The translations under genes and the position numbers were made by a program. Positions 44,939-56,143 of a DNA stretch of 64,000 bases are shown here, one piece after another; positions within the stretch are counted from its first letter, which is position 1, and each line of letters starts with the position of its first letter. Under the pieces are notes generated by a model that worked only from the letters and a program-made list of their open reading frames with translations, ran no database searches and was not told the DNA's origin. Source of the stretch: Gammaproteobacteria bacterium (GTDB lineage Bacteria; Pseudomonadota; Gammaproteobacteria; S012-40); the NCBI GenBank assembly GCA_029881255.1, contig JAOUMY010000005.1, forward strand, positions 1 to 64,000, in the 5' to 3' direction.

Positions 44939-45079
44939 GATCAAATCCCTATGTATTGATATTGGCGTTGGTAGGGTATTGTTGACGAGTTAGCAGGCAT
45001 AATCAATACTGTCGGGGCAAACAACCGCGTTTTCCTGGCGATTTTTCACCTATCACTCTCACTCATGGAGGAGTTAAAC

Positions 45080-45670
45080 ATGAGCGCACTATTCGCATAC
45101 AAAAAACTAATAACGTCATTATTTACGTGCCTGTTGATGAGCGCCATGTTCATGACATCCGGCATCGCCGCTGAAAAAGGCAAGAACAAAGGCTTTGACC
45201 ACAAGGCCATCGTCAAAGAAGCCGCAGAATTTCTCGGTGTAACCAGCGAGGAAATCGCCAAGGTACTGGCCAAAACATTTGAGGAACATGGCAAACCCAA
45301 TGCCTATATCAAAGGCGAAGAAACCGCTGGCGCCTTAGGCGTCGGTGTCAGATTCGGCACAGGCGAGTTACACACGGTCGATGGACAGACACGACAACTG
45401 GAATGGGATGGTCCTTCTATCGGGTTTGATCTCGGCTTGAACACATCAAAGGTATTAATGTTGATTTACCATCTCGATTCACCGGATGACATCTTTAAAC
45501 GTTTTCCTGGTGTTGAAGGCAGTGTGTATCTGGTGGCAGGAATTGGCATTAATTATATGAAATCCGGTTCCACAATTATTGCACCGGTGCGTGTCGGTGT
45601 TGGCTGGAGACACGGCGCCAATGTCGGATTCATCGATTTCAAAGACAAGCAAAAAAAATCGTCGATATAA
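45080..45670 (+). CDS. Exported EipA-like (DUF1134) envelope protein
   Basis: A 196-residue protein with a signal peptide (cleavage near GIAAEK). The mature domain has the DUF1134/EipA pattern: HGKPNAYIKGEETAGALGVGVRFGTGELHTVDG, WDGPSIGFDLGLNTSKVLMLIYHL, RFPGVEGSVYLVAGIGINY and APVRVGVGWRHGANVGFIDF. EipA supports envelope integrity in Brucella and relatives. The start is set by GGAGGAG 10 bp before 45080. A helix-rich piece before the domain (KAIVKEAAEFLGVTSEEIAKVL) is less usual. It ends one base from the convergent cytochrome gene. Confidence 0.85.
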   Translation: MSALFAYKKLITSLFTCLLMSAMFMTSGIAAEKGKNKGFDHKAIVKEAAEFLGVTSEEIAKVLAKTFEEHGKPNAYIKGEETAGALGVGVRFGTGELHTVDGQTRQLEWDGPSIGFDLGLNTSKVLMLIYHLDSPDDIFKRFPGVEGSVYLVAGIGINYMKSGSTIIAPVRVGVGWRHGANVGFIDFKDKQKKSSI

Positions 45671-45671
45671 A

Positions 45672-48146
45672 TTAGTTGCCCGCAATGATTGCCCACGCAC
45701 CCGGTGCATGGCAGTTTTCGCAAACCGTTGAGGAAAAAATGTGCGTCGGTGATTTTCCGGTCGCCGTCACACCGTTGTGACAGCTGAAACACGTGCCAAC
45801 GACTTCTTGATGATCGACACGTATCGCTGGCACCCAGGCGTTGATTGTGTGGCATGCTTCGCATCGTCCGGTATTTGCGATGTGTGTTGGTGCAACTAAA
45901 GGCGGTGTCGTGTCGATGAGTGGTAGCCAAGCTTGTGTGGTGTGGCAGGCGTCGCATTCTTCCGTGTAACCAAAATGGCTTTCAGGTAAAACAGTTATCG
46001 CTAGAGTCGAACTCTTGTGACAACCGGAACATGTACCGATCACTTGAGTGTGGTCAACTACTAAATATGGGACCCAAGCAACACTTGAATGGCATGCAGT
46101 ACAGTTATCGCTTGCAAGTATATGCGACATATTTTTTCCTGGTGCGATTACACCATTGTGGCAAACCGGGCAGGCCCAGAGATACTCGTTGTGATCGTTT
46201 GTGACAGCTGGACTCCATTGAATTGTATTGTGGCAGGCATCGCAGCTATTGGTTGTTGGCAAATGCGTATCTGTCTGTCCTGGAGCGACGATATTGTTGT
46301 GGCAACTAAAACAATCACCAAACACCTGCGTATGATCGACATTAGATACCGGTGTCCATGAACGATGGTCGTGGCAGGCTTCACAGGCGTAACTCGTGGG
46401 AAAATGAAAACTGGGTTGACCCGCTGCATAAATTCCATTGTGACAGATGACACAAGGTCCAAGGATTTCCCAGTGATCAATAGCTACCCCTGCAATCCAC
46501 ATTATTGTTGAGTGGCACGATTCGCAGCTATTGGTTGTAGGAATATGGGTTTCCGGTTTTGCACTTGCTGACACACCGTCGTGACAAGTAAAACAATTTC
46601 CACGCACTTCATTGTGATCGACCAAGATACTGCGATCGGCCTGATGGCAGGCAAGACAGTTGTCGCTAGTGGGAATGTGACTAGCGGGTTGAGTAATATC
46701 GGGCGTTACTACAATCGATGTAACCGGATTAAAGACATATTGGATTGCTTGTAGCGAACTACTGCGCCACAAACTATATTCACGCACGTTATTTTGAGTA
46801 CTCGTCTGCGTCCAATAAATCCATGGCGACCGATCTTGACGAAAAATAAAGGCATAATCCTCTATTTCCTGGCCGCTACCCAAACTAACAACGGCTTCTG
46901 CTGGTAACCAGCCACCTAACGTGCTGTTCAAAACCATATTGAGACTATTCGCCGTGTTTGTGCTTTCCACCCAGGTAATGGCGTAGTGAGTGCTTTTCGC
47001 CGCATAGAGACGAGTTATTGCCGTTTTATCGAGGGGATCATTCAATCTTCGCAGAACCGGAGACCCATGGGTTACCGGGCCAAGCCAAGCCCCTTTTTCA
47101 CGGCTGATCGAATTAACTGAAATACGACTGGTATCACCTTGAACCTTTTCTTCTACATAGGCAATCACGGGTGAATAGTACATACCGCCGATCTCGATTT
47201 CGTCACGTATGAAACGACCGGCTACTGGGGCTAAACCATCGACATATTTCAAGACCATCCACTGGCCTAGAAACTGGCTTACATGCAACACGGAATCTCC
47301 GTTTTGCGGGTGACGCATTTGTATGAAGACATCTGCCAAGGCCAACGGCACAGATATTTGGGCCTTCACTGCAACGACTTGATCGCTTGACGCTAACATG
47401 CCTTTTATCGTTTGAATATCCGTAGGCACCGGTTGCGATTGTTCGTTAACTGTCAAACTCAACACACGTTCCGTGCCAGCGCTGCTTCTTTCAAACCAAA
47501 CCAGCATAGCACTTGTATTTGAAATCGCGGCGGGTTCTGAAAAAACCGACTGAATCACATCGGGTCGATTGATCACTGTTCTCTTGCGTCCACGTTGCTC
47601 AATGACAATATCAATTCCCGTTGGGCTAGGACGTGTCCAGAACAGGGTATCGCTGACATACCAAAGATTGGTTGCCTCTCCGAGCTCCCAAGGGACATTG
47701 GAAGATTGTATATCGGACTTAAAATACCACTGCCCTTGAACTTGCCAAGCCGCGTATGTTGTGTTGGTCAAACTATCAGAAAAGAATTCTAGCTCGGTAA
47801 CGACACCAACATGTTCTGGTGGAAGAAAACTCGTTGTGCTAATTGCGCTGGAAATAGGGTCTACTTGAAATGCTTGTGTACGACTTGTTGATGTGCGCAA
47901 ATTCCATGCGACTATGTCGCGATCTATTGTTGACGCAACTATCGGTCCTTGCGCTTGTACGTCTACGCCTGTGGCAAAACTTTGTGAGTCTATTTGGGTA
48001 GGCACACTCCAATTTACTGATGCTCGAGCACTAAGTAAGCCTGTGTTCCCTGTCGTAACGTATTCAGGAAAGCGTTCGCCACAGGCGGACAAAACACCTA
48101 TAACTATTGCAACCCACAAGGTAATGTGTCTCAGTATTGCATTCAT
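45672..48146 (-). CDS. Tetradecahaem propeller-cytochrome lipoprotein
   Basis: An 824-residue lipoprotein (lipobox GVLSAC, Cys about 22). The N-terminal 470 residues look like a beta-propeller, with recurring blade ends such as AAWQVQGQWYFKSD, ITWVESTNTANS and GAWLGPVTHG. The C-terminal 330 residues hold 14 CxxCH haem sites. They come in two-haem modules of about 47 residues: Cx2CH, then W, then DH, then Cx2CHN, then HxPT. The order is five full modules, one half module (ECDACH then a Pro-rich linker), one full module and a terminal half. His in DH and HxP are the likely distal ligands. It should be a surface or periplasmic electron conduit. It is the most divergent of three tandem paralogues. 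Confidence 0.88.
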   Translation of the reverse strand: MNAILRHITLWVAIVIGVLSACGERFPEYVTTGNTGLLSARASVNWSVPTQIDSQSFATGVDVQAQGPIVASTIDRDIVAWNLRTSTSRTQAFQVDPISSAISTTSFLPPEHVGVVTELEFFSDSLTNTTYAAWQVQGQWYFKSDIQSSNVPWELGEATNLWYVSDTLFWTRPSPTGIDIVIEQRGRKRTVINRPDVIQSVFSEPAAISNTSAMLVWFERSSAGTERVLSLTVNEQSQPVPTDIQTIKGMLASSDQVVAVKAQISVPLALADVFIQMRHPQNGDSVLHVSQFLGQWMVLKYVDGLAPVAGRFIRDEIEIGGMYYSPVIAYVEEKVQGDTSRISVNSISREKGAWLGPVTHGSPVLRRLNDPLDKTAITRLYAAKSTHYAITWVESTNTANSLNMVLNSTLGGWLPAEAVVSLGSGQEIEDYAFIFRQDRSPWIYWTQTSTQNNVREYSLWRSSSLQAIQYVFNPVTSIVVTPDITQPASHIPTSDNCLACHQADRSILVDHNEVRGNCFTCHDGVSASAKPETHIPTTNSCESCHSTIMWIAGVAIDHWEILGPCVICHNGIYAAGQPSFHFPTSYACEACHDHRSWTPVSNVDHTQVFGDCFSCHNNIVAPGQTDTHLPTTNSCDACHNTIQWSPAVTNDHNEYLWACPVCHNGVIAPGKNMSHILASDNCTACHSSVAWVPYLVVDHTQVIGTCSGCHKSSTLAITVLPESHFGYTEECDACHTTQAWLPLIDTTPPLVAPTHIANTGRCEACHTINAWVPAIRVDHQEVVGTCFSCHNGVTATGKSPTHIFSSTVCENCHAPGAWAIIAGN

Positions 48147-48232
48147 TACTATTTTCCCGAGTCTCTTTTTGTTTATTGCTGAACTACTTGGTTGTCGTAT
48201 TTCTTTTTACACGACGAAACCAACTTCAATTT

Positions 48233-50608
48233 TCATATACCGCCAATTGCAGGCAACCAAGCACCTGTGCCATGACAGTTTTCACAAACATTTGATGCAG
48301 GAACATGATTCGCTGGTTTTCCGATAGCTGTCACGCCGTTGTGGCAACTGCTACACGCTCCTAACACTTCTTTGTGATCAACACGAATGACGGGTATCCA
48401 GGAAGTTATTGAATGACAAGCAACGCAGTTATCGGTCGTTGCGATATGTGTTGGCGGTAATCCGGGTGTAGGTTCAGGCAACTTGAGCGGTAGCCATGCT
48501 TTGGTTGTATGGCAGGCATCGCACTCTTCGCTTATAGATATGTGACTAGCTGGCAAACCGAAAGCTATACTATTGTTATGACAGTCACTGCAAACACCAA
48601 TAACATAAGAGTGATCCACAAAAGTAACAGGCGACCATATGTCACTGCTGTGGCAAGTTTCACAAACTAAGGTAGAGGGAATATGCGAAGACGATTTTCC
48701 AGGCGCTACAAGCCCGCTATGACACGCATAACAAGGTGACAACTTTTCATCGTGATCAATAAAAATAACTGGCACCCATCTATTACTACTGTGACAACTT
48801 CCACACGAATTCGAGGAAGGAAAATGCCAAATTTCCTTTCCTGCTGCTAGAATATTGTTGTGACAATCTTCACAGATACCTAGAACTTCATCATGTGACA
48901 CAGAAACGGATTTATCCGGAAGATGGCAACCAAGGCAGTTTTCGGAGGTTGGCAGATGATTCGACGGTTTTGACATCCCTGGCGTCACAACCATCGACGT
49001 TGTTCTATTACTAAAATCCGGTACCGAAACTGCCAAGGTGGTTGTACTATGATATATGTCAAATACAATCGCATTATTTTCTGGTCGTGATGTCTTCCAA
49101 TAGATGTCTGCTTGATAAACTTGGTTACGTACTCCAATCGGACCCGCGATAGGTTTATTCTGACGAAGTAATACAGCGGGATTTTCCACGATACCGGCTC
49201 GATCGTAAGTAGCAATTGTCTCCGGCTGCGACCATAGACCGACAGAGTCGTTATGAACACTTTTCAACTCGCTGGTATTTCCTCGGTTTTCCACCCAAAC
49301 CAATACATGAATCGGCCCCAGCGATACCCAGTCACCCTCTGTCCCAAAGGCCAGATCGAAATACGTCGAATACTCTGCATTTTGGGCGGACGAATTTGTA
49401 CTACGCACAAGAGGAATACCATGGGACTGCGGCTCCCAACTACCACCCTTTATTGAGACTGTTTTAACGCTGGTTGTTATCGTATCTACACTGATTAGTT
49501 CTTCTATATACGCCAGCACTAAGCTTTCGAAATTGCCGGCTGCTTTGATCGGCCCACGAATGCCTCTATCAGGCATAGGCCCTAGACCAAAAACATATTT
49601 AGAGTCACTCCACTGGTTTCCATAGAAATTCGCTTGCGTCACAGAATCACCCAAAACGAAGTCGCTATACTGAACAAAGAAATGTGCTTCAACGCTTGGC
49701 GTAGATACGACGGTTTGTGCAAAAACTATTTCCCCAGTTGGGTTATCTTTCCTGCCAATTTCGATCACGGCACCGAAAACGGGTTGACCGTCAACGTTGA
49801 TAAATGCACTAAAGTTGCGGGCAACGCCTAAGCTGTCAACTTCGACCCAATTCAGCAAAACACTTGTTGGTGAAAATTTCTTAGGCTCAGCAAAAATCGC
49901 TTTCGACACACCGTCACGTAGCAAAGTAGAACGAGTACCGACTATATTGCTCGTATAGATTCCAATTCCGGTTGCTGTGGTATTCCACCACACATATTGC
50001 CCATCTACCTCCCAACCTTCCTTCGCCAAGCCTAGCGAGACAGGATTTCCACCGGCGGAGACATCATATGACTTTAGTAACTCCCCATTGGAAACCCACA
50101 GCGCCGATGTCAAAGACGTAATTGAATTCAACTGAAATCTTGGTAATGTCACCGGCGCTGGCTGTTGTATCGACAGAAAATCGAAGGTTTGGGTTTGCTC
50201 GGACGTAAGATCATGTCGGGCAACACGAAACTGTTGGCTATTCGCCAACTGAGGTTCACTATTTCCTTGGTAGAGATTCCAGGCCAGCCAATTTTGTTCA
50301 CTCGACGCGCCACCGACTACCGGGCCATGCAAATAGCCTGTGCTACCCGCTGGCAGAGTTTCCCCACCGATTCTTTGTGGCGCGCTCCATTCACTCAGAC
50401 CACGTGAACTTATCTTCGCATCGCCAGGTGATTGAGTGTCGTACGTCGGGATGGTTTCATTCGCACACGCGTAGACCAAAATAAGCAGCACAACCAAGCC
50501 GAACGTATTCGTCCTAGTTGCCAATCCATTCCCACATATTGATGTGAATATAATCGCTCGTTTAGACCACGAGATTACAGACACTATGTTTCTCAGTTTT
50601 TGTATCAT
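48233..50608 (-). CDS. Decahaem propeller-cytochrome lipoprotein A
   Basis: Up to 791 residues; a TTG at 50524 would align its start with the next paralogue (TFGLVVLLILVYAC against TFGIIVLMGFAGIMVAC) and may be the true start. It is a lipoprotein (lipobox VYAC). The propeller-like region is close to that of the neighbouring gene (RGLSEWSAPQRIGG against RGLSEWSAPHQVGG). Ten CxxCH sites follow the same grammar: three full two-haem modules, one half module (ECDACH with a Pro-rich linker), one full module and a terminal half (VCENCH). It lies 89 bp from the next paralogue with no terminator seen, so co-transcription is likely. Confidence 0.87.
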   Translation of the reverse strand: MIQKLRNIVSVISWSKRAIIFTSICGNGLATRTNTFGLVVLLILVYACANETIPTYDTQSPGDAKISSRGLSEWSAPQRIGGETLPAGSTGYLHGPVVGGASSEQNWLAWNLYQGNSEPQLANSQQFRVARHDLTSEQTQTFDFLSIQQPAPVTLPRFQLNSITSLTSALWVSNGELLKSYDVSAGGNPVSLGLAKEGWEVDGQYVWWNTTATGIGIYTSNIVGTRSTLLRDGVSKAIFAEPKKFSPTSVLLNWVEVDSLGVARNFSAFINVDGQPVFGAVIEIGRKDNPTGEIVFAQTVVSTPSVEAHFFVQYSDFVLGDSVTQANFYGNQWSDSKYVFGLGPMPDRGIRGPIKAAGNFESLVLAYIEELISVDTITTSVKTVSIKGGSWEPQSHGIPLVRSTNSSAQNAEYSTYFDLAFGTEGDWVSLGPIHVLVWVENRGNTSELKSVHNDSVGLWSQPETIATYDRAGIVENPAVLLRQNKPIAGPIGVRNQVYQADIYWKTSRPENNAIVFDIYHSTTTLAVSVPDFSNRTTSMVVTPGMSKPSNHLPTSENCLGCHLPDKSVSVSHDEVLGICEDCHNNILAAGKEIWHFPSSNSCGSCHSSNRWVPVIFIDHDEKLSPCYACHSGLVAPGKSSSHIPSTLVCETCHSSDIWSPVTFVDHSYVIGVCSDCHNNSIAFGLPASHISISEECDACHTTKAWLPLKLPEPTPGLPPTHIATTDNCVACHSITSWIPVIRVDHKEVLGACSSCHNGVTAIGKPANHVPASNVCENCHGTGAWLPAIGGI

Positions 50609-50697
50609 TCATTTTCCCTGAGATTGTTTTGCTATTTTGTAACGTTTTTCGTTTGTATTTATTTTTCTACAGCCCAAAAACAAAAATTTAAAACACT

Positions 50698-52932
50698 TTA
50701 TAGACCTCCACCTGTTGCGGGTAACCAGGCACCTGTACCGTGACATCTTTCACAGGAATTTGATGCTGGCACGTGATTCACCGGCTTTCCTGTCGCGACC
50801 ACGCCATTATGGCAACTGTTACAGGTTCCTATGACTTCTCGATGATCTACACGTATCACAGGAATCCAAGATGTGACTGCATGACATGCGGCGCAATTGC
50901 CAGTCGTGGCTATATGCGCTGGTGGCAAGCCGGGTGTGGGTTCGGTTTGTTTGACTGGAATCCAAACATCGGTGTAGTGGCATCCATCGCACTCCTCGAT
51001 GATGGGAATATGTGTTGGTGACAAACCTTTTGCGATATTGTTGTTGTGACAACTGGAACATACACCGAAGACATCGGCATGATCAACCGTCGCTGCCGGC
51101 ATCCAAGAAGTGATAAAGTGACACGCCTCGCAGATCATTGTTGTGTTTAGATGCAAAGATCCTTTACCTGGTGCGTCAATTCCATTGTGACAATCAACAC
51201 AGAAGGACAATAATTGCGAGTGATCAAAAGTAATAATTGGATTCCAATAATTAGTGATGTGACAAGCATCACATACATTAGTGCTAGGTACATGCGAAAT
51301 CAGTTTTCCCGAAGCCAAAACATCATCGTGACAATCCCCACACATACCCACCACGTCGGCATGCGAAACGAGAATTGATCTGTCTGGAAAGTGACAAGCG
51401 GCACAGTTATCAGATGTGGGCAAATGATTAGCCGGTTTCGTTGAGCCGGGCGTGACTACTATGGGGGTGCTAGGAGTTGCGACGAAAGGCGCTGCCAATG
51501 TAACCGTGGTAGTACTGTACTTGATATCAAATACAATCGCACTATTTGACGGTTGTGCATGTTTCCAGTAAATATCGGCAACTTGATTGCGGCTAAAAGC
51601 AAGTGTTGGGCTCTCGACAAAGCCATTATTGCTATAAGCGACGATTGTTTCAGGACTAGACCATCCAATTGACTTATCGGTGTGCTCACTCTTAAGTTCG
51701 CTGGTATTCCCACGATTCTCAACCCACACTAATACATATGAAAGGTTATATGCCAGATCGAGATAGGTAGCGTACTCTGCATTCACTGCTTTCGGATCGA
51801 TACTACGCACCATCGGCACGCCATGGGCCGTAGGAACTCCCCATTTTCCGAAATTAGAAATCGTTTTAATATTGCTGGTGATCGTATCTGCATTGGTTAG
51901 TTCTTCAATATAGGCGAGCACAAATCCAATCGATCCGCCTGCTAACTTAATCGGCCCTCTTATTCCTCTGTCCGGTGTTGGTTCTAAACCGGTTACATAA
52001 GAAAAAAACTCCCACTGCGTTCCCGTGTATCGAACAGAGGCAACAGCATCACCTAGCACCGCATCGCTGTATTGCACAAAAAAATCCGCTCTAATCATAG
52101 GTGTCGAAACAAAGGTTTGCATCGAAGCTATATCGCTGTTTGCAATCTTGGGATTTCGAATCTCCTGCACGCTGCCAAAAGGCTGAGCGCTACTACCGTC
52201 AATCGCTACGCCAAAGAAACGCCTAACACCAAAATCATCGACCTCCATCCAATTCAACAACACCGTCGTTGCTGAAAATCGTTTCGGTGTTGCAAACATT
52301 GCCTGCGCGGCACCGGCACGCACCAAACGATCACGAATACCGGCTTCTTTATTGGTATAGATTTCAATGCCGGTGCTTGTCTTCGTCCACCAAACATATT
52401 GTCCATCGACATCCCAAGCTTCTTGTGCGAGCCCCAATGGCGTAGGATTTCCCGCAACGGAAATATCGCGCATCATGAACAACACGCCATTAAAAATCCA
52501 CAAAGCAGAGGTCAAGTTAGTAACAGGATCGAAACGAAGTTGTGGTAGCGTGGTCTGCGTAGAATGTTGCGCGGGAAGAAATTCGTAGGTTCGTGTTTGC
52601 GCGGTAATTCGATCAAATTGTACTGTGGTGATACGTTGGCTGAACGCTGCGAGTGGATCATCGCTGCCTTGATAGAGGTTCCAGGCCAGCAAGTCATAGC
52701 CGTCCGCAGCACTGCTCACCACTGGGCCTTGCAGATACCCAGCATTGCCCGCGGATAGCGTGTCACCACCTACCTGGTGTGGCGCGCTCCATTCACTCAG
52801 GCCGCGTGATACGAGTTGTGTATCGTTTGACAAACGGGATTTTTGCGAGGGAATAGTCTCCCCCGTGCACGCAACCATAATGCCCGCAAAACCCATCAGC
52901 ACGATGATGCCAAATGTGATCGTCCTAATCAC
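50698..52932 (-). CDS. Decahaem propeller-cytochrome lipoprotein B
   Basis: A 744-residue paralogue and the first gene of the three-gene cluster. It starts at a GTG (52932) behind GGGGGAG. The lipobox is IMVAC (Cys about 22). The N-terminal propeller-like region (about 30-480) has blade ends such as VLAYIEELTNADTITS and YVLVWVENRGNTSE. Ten haem sites are arranged exactly as in the previous paralogue, from NCAACH to SCERCH, with the conserved half module ECDGCH followed by a linker with PTPGLPPAHI. It should be exported, lipid-anchored and loaded with haem by the Ccm system. The promoter region is shared divergently with the propeller lipoprotein at 53303. Confidence 0.88.
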   Translation of the reverse strand: MIRTITFGIIVLMGFAGIMVACTGETIPSQKSRLSNDTQLVSRGLSEWSAPHQVGGDTLSAGNAGYLQGPVVSSAADGYDLLAWNLYQGSDDPLAAFSQRITTVQFDRITAQTRTYEFLPAQHSTQTTLPQLRFDPVTNLTSALWIFNGVLFMMRDISVAGNPTPLGLAQEAWDVDGQYVWWTKTSTGIEIYTNKEAGIRDRLVRAGAAQAMFATPKRFSATTVLLNWMEVDDFGVRRFFGVAIDGSSAQPFGSVQEIRNPKIANSDIASMQTFVSTPMIRADFFVQYSDAVLGDAVASVRYTGTQWEFFSYVTGLEPTPDRGIRGPIKLAGGSIGFVLAYIEELTNADTITSNIKTISNFGKWGVPTAHGVPMVRSIDPKAVNAEYATYLDLAYNLSYVLVWVENRGNTSELKSEHTDKSIGWSSPETIVAYSNNGFVESPTLAFSRNQVADIYWKHAQPSNSAIVFDIKYSTTTVTLAAPFVATPSTPIVVTPGSTKPANHLPTSDNCAACHFPDRSILVSHADVVGMCGDCHDDVLASGKLISHVPSTNVCDACHITNYWNPIITFDHSQLLSFCVDCHNGIDAPGKGSLHLNTTMICEACHFITSWMPAATVDHADVFGVCSSCHNNNIAKGLSPTHIPIIEECDGCHYTDVWIPVKQTEPTPGLPPAHIATTGNCAACHAVTSWIPVIRVDHREVIGTCNSCHNGVVATGKPVNHVPASNSCERCHGTGAWLPATGGGL

Positions 52933-53302
52933 AGGTTCTCCCCCAAACCATAGGTGTGATGAAGGTGCTAATCTGCTGCGGTGTGTATTTTTATGTATTC
53001 TTCGTCATACTTAGTCAGCGAACAGTTACGACGCAAAATCTAATTCGGAATATGTGTTTACCCGTGTAAACCGCGATTTTCCATTTGGTTTTGTCTTGCT
53101 CGCGTTTGCTAGCTAACTCATGCAAAAGATTTCTAATTTTTAAATTTAGATTAATTATGAGTACAACATACTGATTGGAGGGACTGAACCCAAAATGAAA
53201 ATAGTGATTACTTCGCTCGGAATTCAAAGCGCTTGACTTATCATTTCAGGATTGCGAGCATTGACGTGGGATTATTTCCCGCTCATTAAACGGAGAACAA
53301 CC
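52933..53302. other. Divergent control region of cytochrome cluster
   Basis: A 370-bp AT-rich region between the leftward multihaem genes and the rightward propeller lipoprotein gene. It holds a perfect dyad, GTTTAC-CCGT-GTAAAC, at 53056-53071, which could be an operator for a dimeric regulator. AT-rich promoter-like sequence follows at about 53135-53165. No GTGA array and no coding frame is seen. Confidence 0.5.
53056..53071. promoter_or_regulatory. Perfect 6-4-6 dyad, candidate operator
   Basis: GTTTACCCGTGTAAAC is a perfect inverted repeat with 6-bp arms and a 4-bp centre, midway between divergent genes. Its position suits control of both the cytochrome cluster and the propeller lipoprotein. 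A palindrome of this length can also arise by chance. Confidence 0.35.
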
Positions 53303-56143
53303 ATGGCTGTGGTTAATTCAAATAAGAATATGCTTATCCTCTTGTGCCTCTGCATTAGTCTTTCCGCCTGCGGCCTGGGAAAACAAGGCCCCCTGGCGAC
53401 CGAAGAAGACACGCCTGCAGAAGAAACACCGTTTCCAGATTCGTATTCCTTAATGGTCAACGAACAAAACGAGATGGTGTTGCATACCAATCAGGAAGAA
53501 ATGCCTGAGAATACCCAACACGTTTCGCTACCTAAATATAGGGAACCCACCGCTGCCAAGAAGTTATTAATGGGTTCTGGCGCCTGGTTGAGCATGCCTG
53601 AGCAACAAACCTATCAAACGCTACTACCCCAGCCCGAACTTTTTTGCGCGCCGATCGACAATACGGACTATGCGACAGCCGTCGAGCAATTAGGCGGTTT
53701 TCACAAAACCATACATATCGGAATCGAACCGGACGCCAGCACGCCGCGTTTTCTCGATGGTATTGAAAAACCGTATTATGGCATCGGCCTGGGAGGAGGC
53801 TTGGCCACTGCAAGCCCAATGGCCGATGGTAGCGAAGCTGCACAAGTCTCGATACAACGACCCAATCGCGTGGCCCGTTTTCAAAATACCGGATTTTATT
53901 TATCCGATATCTATGGTTTGATCGCGGTGTTGTTCGATGACAAATCGCAGATCAAGGTGTCCTGTGCTGTACCACTACCGGGTAATGCGGTCAATTTTCT
54001 GGTCAACCAGGATTCTTTAATCGTCTTAGTACGCAGCAGTAATAGCCGACACACTGGGCTATTGCAATTCAAGACCGATGGCCAACTGGGTCTGACCTTC
54101 CACGATGCCTTGTTTTTTGAGAACACACGCTTGCTCGACGCCAGGCTGTTTAATGAAACACTAGCACTTTATGTCGCGGAAGAAGAACCCTACGATCGGC
54201 CGGTGATCAGCCCACAAGCCGATTTCATGCCGATATATATTCCACCGGTGAAGACACTCAATCACCAGCTCAAGGTTATCGACACCAGCTCTGGACTGGA
54301 ATTAAAACACACCGAAGTATTTGCGCTAGAAGAGACTCCACCGGATTTTGCCGGACCGGAAGACAGCTGGTATTCAAACTACAATACCTTTCTCAGCGCC
54401 AGCGGCCAATATCTCATCGTCAGCGAACGCAAGACGCACCGCTATATCTCGCACTATGAAACACGCAAGCACAGTCGTTGTCAGGAATGGACATCACGCG
54501 AAGTGTCTTACCGCTACTGCAGAACGATTTGGAAACAGGTGGAAAACCCCGACTATGTACCACCAGGCGCCTCAGGCACGGTGGTCTGTACCGGTTCACT
54601 ACTCGACTGTATTAAACAACGTGGCCCACAATTGAGTCGCTATATCAATGTTGCCGATGGCCAGGAGTGTCGCGACGGAACCTATACCACAAGTTCGTGC
54701 AGCCGCTATAACTACGAAACCTATCAAGTACCGATCTTCGCCAATGCGGAGTATACCCATTTCAATATCTACCGTTTCGTGAACGGCGAGTTTATAAAAC
54801 TCGATGATCAACTGGGCGTCCTGAAAGACAATGAATTACTCAGCAGCAACGCGCCATTGCAAATCGAAGGGCATGTGCAAAAACACGATCACCTGAAATT
54901 TATTGGTGATCAGTTATACGCGGTGAGCCACGCTAACGGCGGCAAATCACACTTTCTGAATACGTTTTCCGTGGTTGGCAACTCAGCCATACACGTCGAC
55001 AAACAATTGCTAATGACGACGCCTGGTTATGCCAGTATCGCGACGTATTTTACGCCGGATAAAATTTATGTCAGCGAAAGCAGTTATCAATACAGCAGTA
55101 CCTTGCAATGGAGCAATATGCAACTGGTTTCCATTAGCAATCCGATTAAACCAAGTAAAACCGGCACCACCCGCGTGCCCACGCAATTCGATCAACTGTT
55201 TTTTGGCCAGGACACGCTCATAGGCGTAGGGCGAGTGACGTTAAATGATGAGGATGCCAACTTCGACATGACGCTGGGCAGTGTTACCAGTCTGGCCAGC
55301 GACGGGAATGAAATCGGCAGCGTGTTACTAGGTAGCGATTATCAGTTTTACAATCACAGCGTAACAGGCGACGACCAGGTGCTGGAACTCGACAGCGCAC
55401 TCAATCGATTAATACTTCCCTATCACGTACAACATCCTATCGCCAACCTCACTGCGGCGCCGGCCTTGAATCGTCTGAGTATGATCGACTTTGACATGAC
55501 AGGCCCAAAGGAAGAAGTCACCTTCGAACTTCCTGCGCAACCCAATCGCACGCTGAGCATCGCCAGCGATCTCGCTTTCTCATTCAGCGATGCCTTTATT
55601 CATAGCCTGACCAAGGGTGAGAATTGGCAAAAAAACGCGGTCTTTGATGGCGAAGTTCCCGCTTCGATCTATTATTCGCGCACGGTGGAGCAGCAAATAC
55701 AAAAGTTTGTCCGCGCTGATCAATTTGTCTTTAAGCTGGTCGACGCGGCAGATGGCGCGACAGGTAACATACTGGATAGTCTGTCGATACAGCGTGCCTC
55801 AAGTCAGTTCTGCGTTAACGAGCAAGTGTATTTCGATAAGAACCGCATCCTGGTTGTACAGGAAAAACCGGGCGTGTATTTATCCTATCAGGATTGTGAA
55901 ACCGAAGTCGCTGACAGACAGCTATTGCTTACCGGCTATCGTATCGCCGATAACAAACTCAGCTTGATCGAGTCGCAGAAAGAGTTACAGGACTTGTATC
56001 AATTGATCGGTTGGGATTTGCAGTGTGTGCTTGACATAAACAACCGCGAAGGAAAAGAGTTGCAAGAACCACCTGCCGACATGAGCTCAGTCAGTTGTTA
56101 CCCCCGGCAGGAATACGACACGCTGATGAACAGCGCTATTTGA
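53303..56143 (+). CDS. Large lipoprotein with beta-propeller-type C-terminal domain
   Basis: A 946-residue lipoprotein; the ATG at 53303 follows CGGAGAAC and gives a clean lipobox (SLSAC, Cys about 23). The start of the mature protein is acidic (TEEDTPAEETP). The middle and end look like the secreted beta-propeller family: FLSASGQYLIVSE, HLKFIGDQLYAVSH, ISNPIKPSKTGTTRVPTQFDQLFFGQDTLIGVG and the late LNRLILPYHVQHP. A Cys-rich insert (about 395-480, with SRCQEW, YRYCRT and SSCSRYNYE) may form disulfides. No enzyme motif is visible. It is divergent from the multihaem cluster and overlaps the convergent SUMF1-type gene by 8 bp. Confidence 0.78.
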   Translation: MAVVNSNKNMLILLCLCISLSACGLGKQGPLATEEDTPAEETPFPDSYSLMVNEQNEMVLHTNQEEMPENTQHVSLPKYREPTAAKKLLMGSGAWLSMPEQQTYQTLLPQPELFCAPIDNTDYATAVEQLGGFHKTIHIGIEPDASTPRFLDGIEKPYYGIGLGGGLATASPMADGSEAAQVSIQRPNRVARFQNTGFYLSDIYGLIAVLFDDKSQIKVSCAVPLPGNAVNFLVNQDSLIVLVRSSNSRHTGLLQFKTDGQLGLTFHDALFFENTRLLDARLFNETLALYVAEEEPYDRPVISPQADFMPIYIPPVKTLNHQLKVIDTSSGLELKHTEVFALEETPPDFAGPEDSWYSNYNTFLSASGQYLIVSERKTHRYISHYETRKHSRCQEWTSREVSYRYCRTIWKQVENPDYVPPGASGTVVCTGSLLDCIKQRGPQLSRYINVADGQECRDGTYTTSSCSRYNYETYQVPIFANAEYTHFNIYRFVNGEFIKLDDQLGVLKDNELLSSNAPLQIEGHVQKHDHLKFIGDQLYAVSHANGGKSHFLNTFSVVGNSAIHVDKQLLMTTPGYASIATYFTPDKIYVSESSYQYSSTLQWSNMQLVSISNPIKPSKTGTTRVPTQFDQLFFGQDTLIGVGRVTLNDEDANFDMTLGSVTSLASDGNEIGSVLLGSDYQFYNHSVTGDDQVLELDSALNRLILPYHVQHPIANLTAAPALNRLSMIDFDMTGPKEEVTFELPAQPNRTLSIASDLAFSFSDAFIHSLTKGENWQKNAVFDGEVPASIYYSRTVEQQIQKFVRADQFVFKLVDAADGATGNILDSLSIQRASSQFCVNEQVYFDKNRILVVQEKPGVYLSYQDCETEVADRQLLLTGYRIADNKLSLIESQKELQDLYQLIGWDLQCVLDINNREGKELQEPPADMSSVSCYPRQEYDTLMNSAI

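Follow-up and report, generated by a model that had tools for sequence, protein, structure and literature searches.

Three adjacent genes in the window, the stretch of 64,000 nucleotides that was analysed, encode lipoproteins in which a predicted beta-propeller is fused to a tail of 10 or 14 c-type haems (Table 1). The haem module of these tails is shared with the giant exported cytochromes of the same genome, which also carries two complete clusters of PCC3, a porin-cytochrome system with an extracellular many-haem subunit (He et al. 2017, PMC5566968). We propose, with a probability of roughly 0.55, that the three proteins are outer-membrane surface electron-transfer adaptors that work with PCC3 and use the propeller as a docking module. 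The giant-cytochrome systems concerned export electrons from cells or import them, and the propeller-haem family offers concrete proteins for testing how giant PCC3 cytochromes hand electrons to the outside of the cell.

Table 1. Positions in the window of the three propeller-haem genes and of the parts of their products
Feature	Position	Strand	Description	Basis
Gene C	50698..52932	(-)	744-aa lipoprotein, predicted propeller and 10 CxxCH, blocks of 7 and 3; GTG start	ORF, blocks
Gene C propeller, eight-bladed, predicted	51505..52779	(-)	about residues 52-476	AlphaFold2, fold matches
Gene C haem block 1 (7 haems)	50956..51426	(-)	H-x6-CxxCH modules	
Gene C Pro-rich linker	50917..50955	(-)	VKQTEPTPGLPPA	
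Gene C haem block 2 (3 haems)	50701..50916	(-)	H-x6-CxxCH modules	
Gene B	48233..50608	(-)	791-aa lipoprotein, predicted propeller and 10 CxxCH, blocks of 7 and 3	ORF, blocks
Gene B propeller, approximate	49037..50377	(-)		52% identical to modelled domain of C
Gene B haem block 1 (7 haems)	48488..48958	(-)	H-x6-CxxCH modules	
Gene B Pro-rich linker	48449..48487	(-)	LKLPEPTPGLPPT	
Gene B haem block 2 (3 haems)	48236..48448	(-)	H-x6-CxxCH modules	
Gene A	45672..48146	(-)	824-aa lipoprotein, predicted propeller and 14 CxxCH, blocks of 11 and 3	ORF, blocks
Gene A propeller, approximate	46752..47999	(-)		29% identical to modelled domain of C
Gene A haem block 1 (11 haems)	45921..46679	(-)	H-x6-CxxCH modules	
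Gene A linker	45885..45920	(-)	LIDTTPPLVAPT	
Gene A haem block 2 (3 haems)	45675..45884	(-)	H-x6-CxxCH modules	

The genes occupy positions 45672-52932 of the minus strand and are separated by gaps of about 90 bases. Their coordinates, strand and haem counts (14, 10 and 10) had been given correctly in the first-pass annotation, as judged from the open reading frames and a count of CxxCH motifs; shuffled versions of the three proteins contained at most two such motifs each. The lipid anchor that it had claimed was supported by a lipobox Cys located after a hydrophobic signal in each predicted lipoprotein (C22 in A and C, C48 in B). The residues that follow in the three proteins are GE, AN or TG, so that Asp is never found at +2; a non-Asp residue at this position is the usual outer-membrane sorting pattern for lipoproteins. 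The lipobox Cys of gene B is residue 48, and the true start of this gene is probably downstream of the listed ATG.

Diverged tandem duplication is the best explanation for the trio. In a tree of propeller domains A, B and C were monophyletic, with B and C closest to each other, and the trio grouped with a fourth paralogue, L029. Genes B and C are 56% identical. When they were compared in 40-residue windows, 35-79% of residues agreed, against 20-55% of third codon positions, and both genes therefore appear to be under purifying selection. A scan for promoters and terminators gave no more sites than were found in shuffled sequence, and an operon is thus unproven; a plasmid search found none.

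The basic module of the tails carries one haem, has the form H-x6-C-x2-C-H and spans about 23.5 residues; it accounts for all 34 haems of the three proteins. Two flavours of the module alternate, one with W-x-P then D-H and the other with N-G then H-x-P, and the spacings of 24 and 23 residues result in a two-haem unit of about 47 residues. The two-haem unit reported in the first-pass annotation was therefore present, but it was not the smallest one. Motif spacing agreed with the order described there, namely n full units, a half unit, one full unit and a terminal half unit, with n being 5 in A and 3 in B and C, and the length of the three tails had indeed changed by whole two-haem units. Free His residues number 10, 10 and 15 for 10, 10 and 14 haems, the extra one being located in CEACHDHRS; since they are at least as numerous as the haems, every haem can be bis-His. 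The same module was present at 79 of the 80 haems of seven propeller proteins, and the three tails scored 63.9, 48.8 and 46.3 bits against the Cytochrome_C7 model (PF14522), for which the gathering cut-off is 24.8.

Each tail consists of two haem blocks split by a Pro-rich linker, and the haem that ends the first block is the half unit. The second block contains three haems in C, B, A and L029, in which it follows blocks of 7, 7, 11 and 9 haems, respectively, and the distance from the joint to the C-terminus is equal in all four proteins. To this extent the half unit does lie at one place, as had been claimed, but it is not a fixed joint: the blocks contain 5 and 5 haems in another family member, L027, and 7 and 7 in L036, while L155 is without a Pro-rich joint. 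Given these plans, the joint is a block boundary and has no fixed position. The two halves of L027 and of L036 match in register and their haem blocks are exactly symmetric; in the halves test 1 of 12 (L027) and 6 of 144 (L036) parity-keeping permutations, the in-register one included, scored as high. These symmetric forms suggest a way in which haem wires may be assembled and their length changed, by whole modules at a time. A full-length structure prediction for gene C, made without haems, gave a pLDDT of about 30 in the tail, hence rods and hinge are spoken of here only as putative elements.

The N-terminal domain comprises about 430 residues in A, B and C and was matched by no Pfam or NCBIfam model. 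The AlphaFold2 model of the gene C domain, produced with eight homologues, was all-beta, with a pLDDT of 82 and a pTM of 0.82, and by a manual count of the strand list the predicted strands at 31-454 fall into eight sheets. The top Foldseek matches were sialidase-like enzymes and propellers; a second aligner returned the eight-bladed Cdc4, Fbw7, BamB and DPP-IV at Z scores of 18-24 and about 6-12% identity, and sugar-binding lectins also were among the matches. These predictions agree with the propeller-like domain noted earlier (first-pass annotation). An alignment of eight propellers contained ten invariant columns, all of them W, G, P, A or L. No catalytic residue is therefore conserved, which speaks for a fold used in scaffolding or binding and against an enzyme. 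The same genome also encodes propeller lipoproteins of this family that lack haems (495 and 1527 aa), and the propeller thus has a haem-independent role. The 1527-aa protein (L157:3951-8534) apparently contains several propellers of this family.

The genome encodes five propeller-haem proteins, namely A, B, C, L029 (12 haems) and L027 (4515-8174), in which 10 haems are placed between two propellers. The propeller-haem-propeller arrangement was also found in two other genera of the family, in L036 (2380-6348, 14 haems) and L155 (10 haems), and a fourth family genome contained a copy of the fusion cut by a contig end. The search for this domain order across genomes thus found the propeller and haem parts together in other genera, and the fusion recurs in three genera. 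Outside the family, the propeller matches among 369 genomes of the class carried no CxxCH in the open reading frames concerned; a propeller search of 398 genomes of the phylum at E 1e-10 matched only the genome itself, and a scan of named genomes with gene C found no relative. Since one family genome (G003) was sequence-identical to the Gammaproteobacteria assembly Hainich-H32-bin001-1, the family lies in the Gammaproteobacteria. The fusion looks like a rare add-on to giant-cytochrome systems that is so far confined to one small bacterial lineage.

PCC3 comprises a porin, a periplasmic many-haem cytochrome, an extracellular cytochrome and a membrane protein of about 300 aa with SGxxG and two Hx13H motifs (PMC5566968). 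A candidate for the porin-cytochrome partner elsewhere in the genome, which it had been suggested to look for, was found in the two complete PCC3 clusters. In G000:C8 (L033:3963-13153) the 63-haem gene has a TPR-barrel porin on one side and a 21-haem cytochrome on the other, and next after this cytochrome comes a 296-aa membrane protein; G000:C10 (L161:4702-7285 and L034:1282-7817) is of the same make, and its extracellular cytochrome has 47 haems. The porins of the two clusters are homologous (E 1e-20), their 21-haem cytochromes are 42% identical and both inner-membrane proteins carry SGxxG and two H-x13-H motifs. Exported cytochromes of the genome with 66, 63, 47, 42, 27 and 26 haems share the module of the trio, and a haem tail was 50% identical to a 66-haem protein (E 5.5e-43). 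The H-x6-CxxCH form accounts for 63 of 66, 58 of 63, 41 of 47 and 38 of 42 haems in the giant cytochromes, in contrast to just 1-3 of 21 in the periplasmic 21-haem PCC3 cytochromes. The tail of the propeller proteins is thus of the extracellular type. In total, at least 422 CxxCH motifs were counted in only 16 exported proteins of the genome, and extracellular electron transfer is therefore strongly suspected in this lineage.

When the 21-haem protein was used in a scan, the matches included Gallionella, Sideroxydans, Sideroxyarcus, Leptothrix and Sphaerotilus. The protein was present in all four family genomes with the fusion; this co-occurrence is not significant, since PCC3 is found in 10 of the 13 family genomes in any case. 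Among the open reading frames around 42-56 kb, no porin or PCC3 gene lies beside genes A, B and C, and BLAST searches for the porin and the membrane protein returned no open reading frame of the window. In this respect the trio differs from the PCC3 extracellular genes, which adjoin those for the porin, the periplasmic cytochrome and the inner-membrane protein; by their gene setting the three proteins are not PCC3 subunits. The PCC3 extracellular subunit (PMC5566968) resembles the trio in its tandem H-x6-CxxCH module, its Cytochrome_C7-type tail and its export, but the subunits that were compared have 19-63 haems and no propeller, whereas the trio has a propeller and 10-14 haems.

A conserved partnership between propellers and large cytochromes is already known from other systems, with the two as separate proteins. 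Separate propeller proteins accompany large multihaem cytochromes in operons of SEEP-SRB1 and Desulfofervidus (PMC5539420) and in Desulfovibrio ferrophilus (PMC8322314), and the UetHI NHL units of Uet are propeller partners of large cytochromes (PMC10734462). As in the trio, a propeller is paired with exported many-haem cytochromes in these systems, and some of the propellers are lipoproteins; unlike the fused and predicted eight-bladed propeller of the trio, they are separate and have six or seven blades or NHL repeats. In open full text on multihaem cytochromes and propellers, which the literature search covered, only separate propeller proteins and unrelated enzymes were found. The covalent, lipid-anchored and sometimes two-propeller fusion appears to be undescribed.

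OmcA/MtrC is, like the trio, an outer-membrane lipoprotein with about ten haems, but has beta-barrel domains where the trio has the propeller. The first-pass annotation had named a match to this family as something to look for. The OmcA/MtrC models were absent among the NCBIfam and Pfam matches of A, B and C at E <= 1, and the similarity of the haem region to MtrC was weak (E 0.0008-0.012). The MtrB/PioB model (PF11854) had 0 matches in the genome; it matched only one of the control genomes, and that one below the cut-off, so that a divergent MtrB could be missed. An OmcA/MtrC identity was rejected because neither the family models nor an MtrB-type porin matched. No OmcS chain was matched in a sequence search of solved structures with gene A as the only query. 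The earlier opinion that the combination is not a described conduit therefore stands in that none with the fusion was found; the isolation that it implied does not, since the haem module is of the PCC3 extracellular kind.

According to the reading preferred here, A, B and C would be outer-membrane lipoproteins displayed at the cell surface, where a short N-terminal tether would carry a rigid eight-bladed propeller. The tail would be a string of bis-His c-type haems arranged in two rods with a putative flexible Pro-rich hinge between them, and may pass or store electrons between the extracellular cytochromes of PCC3 and a partner outside the cell, such as a mineral, another cell or humic matter. 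The propeller would not be an enzyme but would serve in docking or binding and so bring the tail into position, and the fusion may represent a covalent form of the partnership seen as separate proteins elsewhere. The family would thereby combine a PCC3-type haem module, a lipid anchor and a propeller of the docking type, in versions that have 10-14 haems and either a single propeller or two. As the direction of flow, electron uptake is slightly favoured because PCC3 has been described in iron oxidisers. A fuller version, in which lineage-specific surface adaptors made of a propeller and a two-rod hinged haem wire bridge PCC3 conduits to one another or to outside partners, the two-propeller form is ancestral, and haem number and propeller copy are tuned by duplication, is put forward only tentatively.

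The side of the membrane on which the proteins lie could be the opposite one. Bacterial lipoproteins by default face the periplasm, and the matches of the propeller model include BamB (Z 18-19), an outer-membrane lipoprotein whose eight-bladed propeller docks on BamA; the trio might thus be attached to the outer membrane from the periplasmic side, with the propeller docked on a porin or envelope machine and the tail relaying periplasmic electrons to the PCC3 porin. This is unlikely, given that the haem module is of the extracellular and not the periplasmic PCC3 type and that BamB is just one among many eight-bladed matches, at 6-9% identity. Somewhat less likely still is a role as electron sinks at the surface or as adhesins for extracellular material, in which the haems would be mainly a capacitor or metal reductase with no dedicated link to PCC3. 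The lectins among the propeller matches are consistent with such a role, as are lipoproteins of the same genome in which PKD domains replace the propeller ahead of a haem tail and which would be parallel versions; however, an isolated surface haem protein needs a conduit, and PCC3 is the one found here.

An eight-bladed propeller fused to a c-type haem occurs in cytochrome cd1 nitrite reductase and quinohaemoprotein alcohol dehydrogenase, and the sialidase-like enzymes at the top of the Foldseek matches also could be taken to mean that redox or hydrolytic catalysis takes place in the propeller, with the many-haem tail as its electron acceptor. However, no enzyme, PQQ or haem d1 family of Pfam or NCBIfam was matched, and the invariant propeller columns are without a catalytic-type residue. 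The two known fusions are periplasmic enzymes with one c haem and a cofactor in the propeller, whereas the trio has 10-14 haems, a predicted lipid anchor and no detected cofactor family. An enzymatic propeller is accordingly the least probable of these alternatives, and surface adaptors working with PCC3 remain the preferred reading.

Several other genes were recorded. An EipA (PF06577) gene at 45065-45670 (+) runs towards gene A so that their stop codons nearly touch, and a gene for a 963-aa lipoprotein at 53252-56143 (+) is divergent from gene C. The latter matched no Pfam or NCBIfam family, a search of 12 other genomes of the family found no homologue, and for these reasons it was dropped as a partner of the trio. 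The lipoproteins with PKD domains in the place of the propeller are L030:8938-10701 (10 haems), L034:14383-16197 (11 haems) and L032:5988-8816 (32 haems); a literature search for the two terms together found no paper. Exported cytochromes with no porin homologue found beside them are L035:5914-10911 (66 haems), L037:6894-11915 (66 haems) and L040:6527-11764 (67 haems), and the two 66-haem proteins have one block plan (9, 36 and 21).
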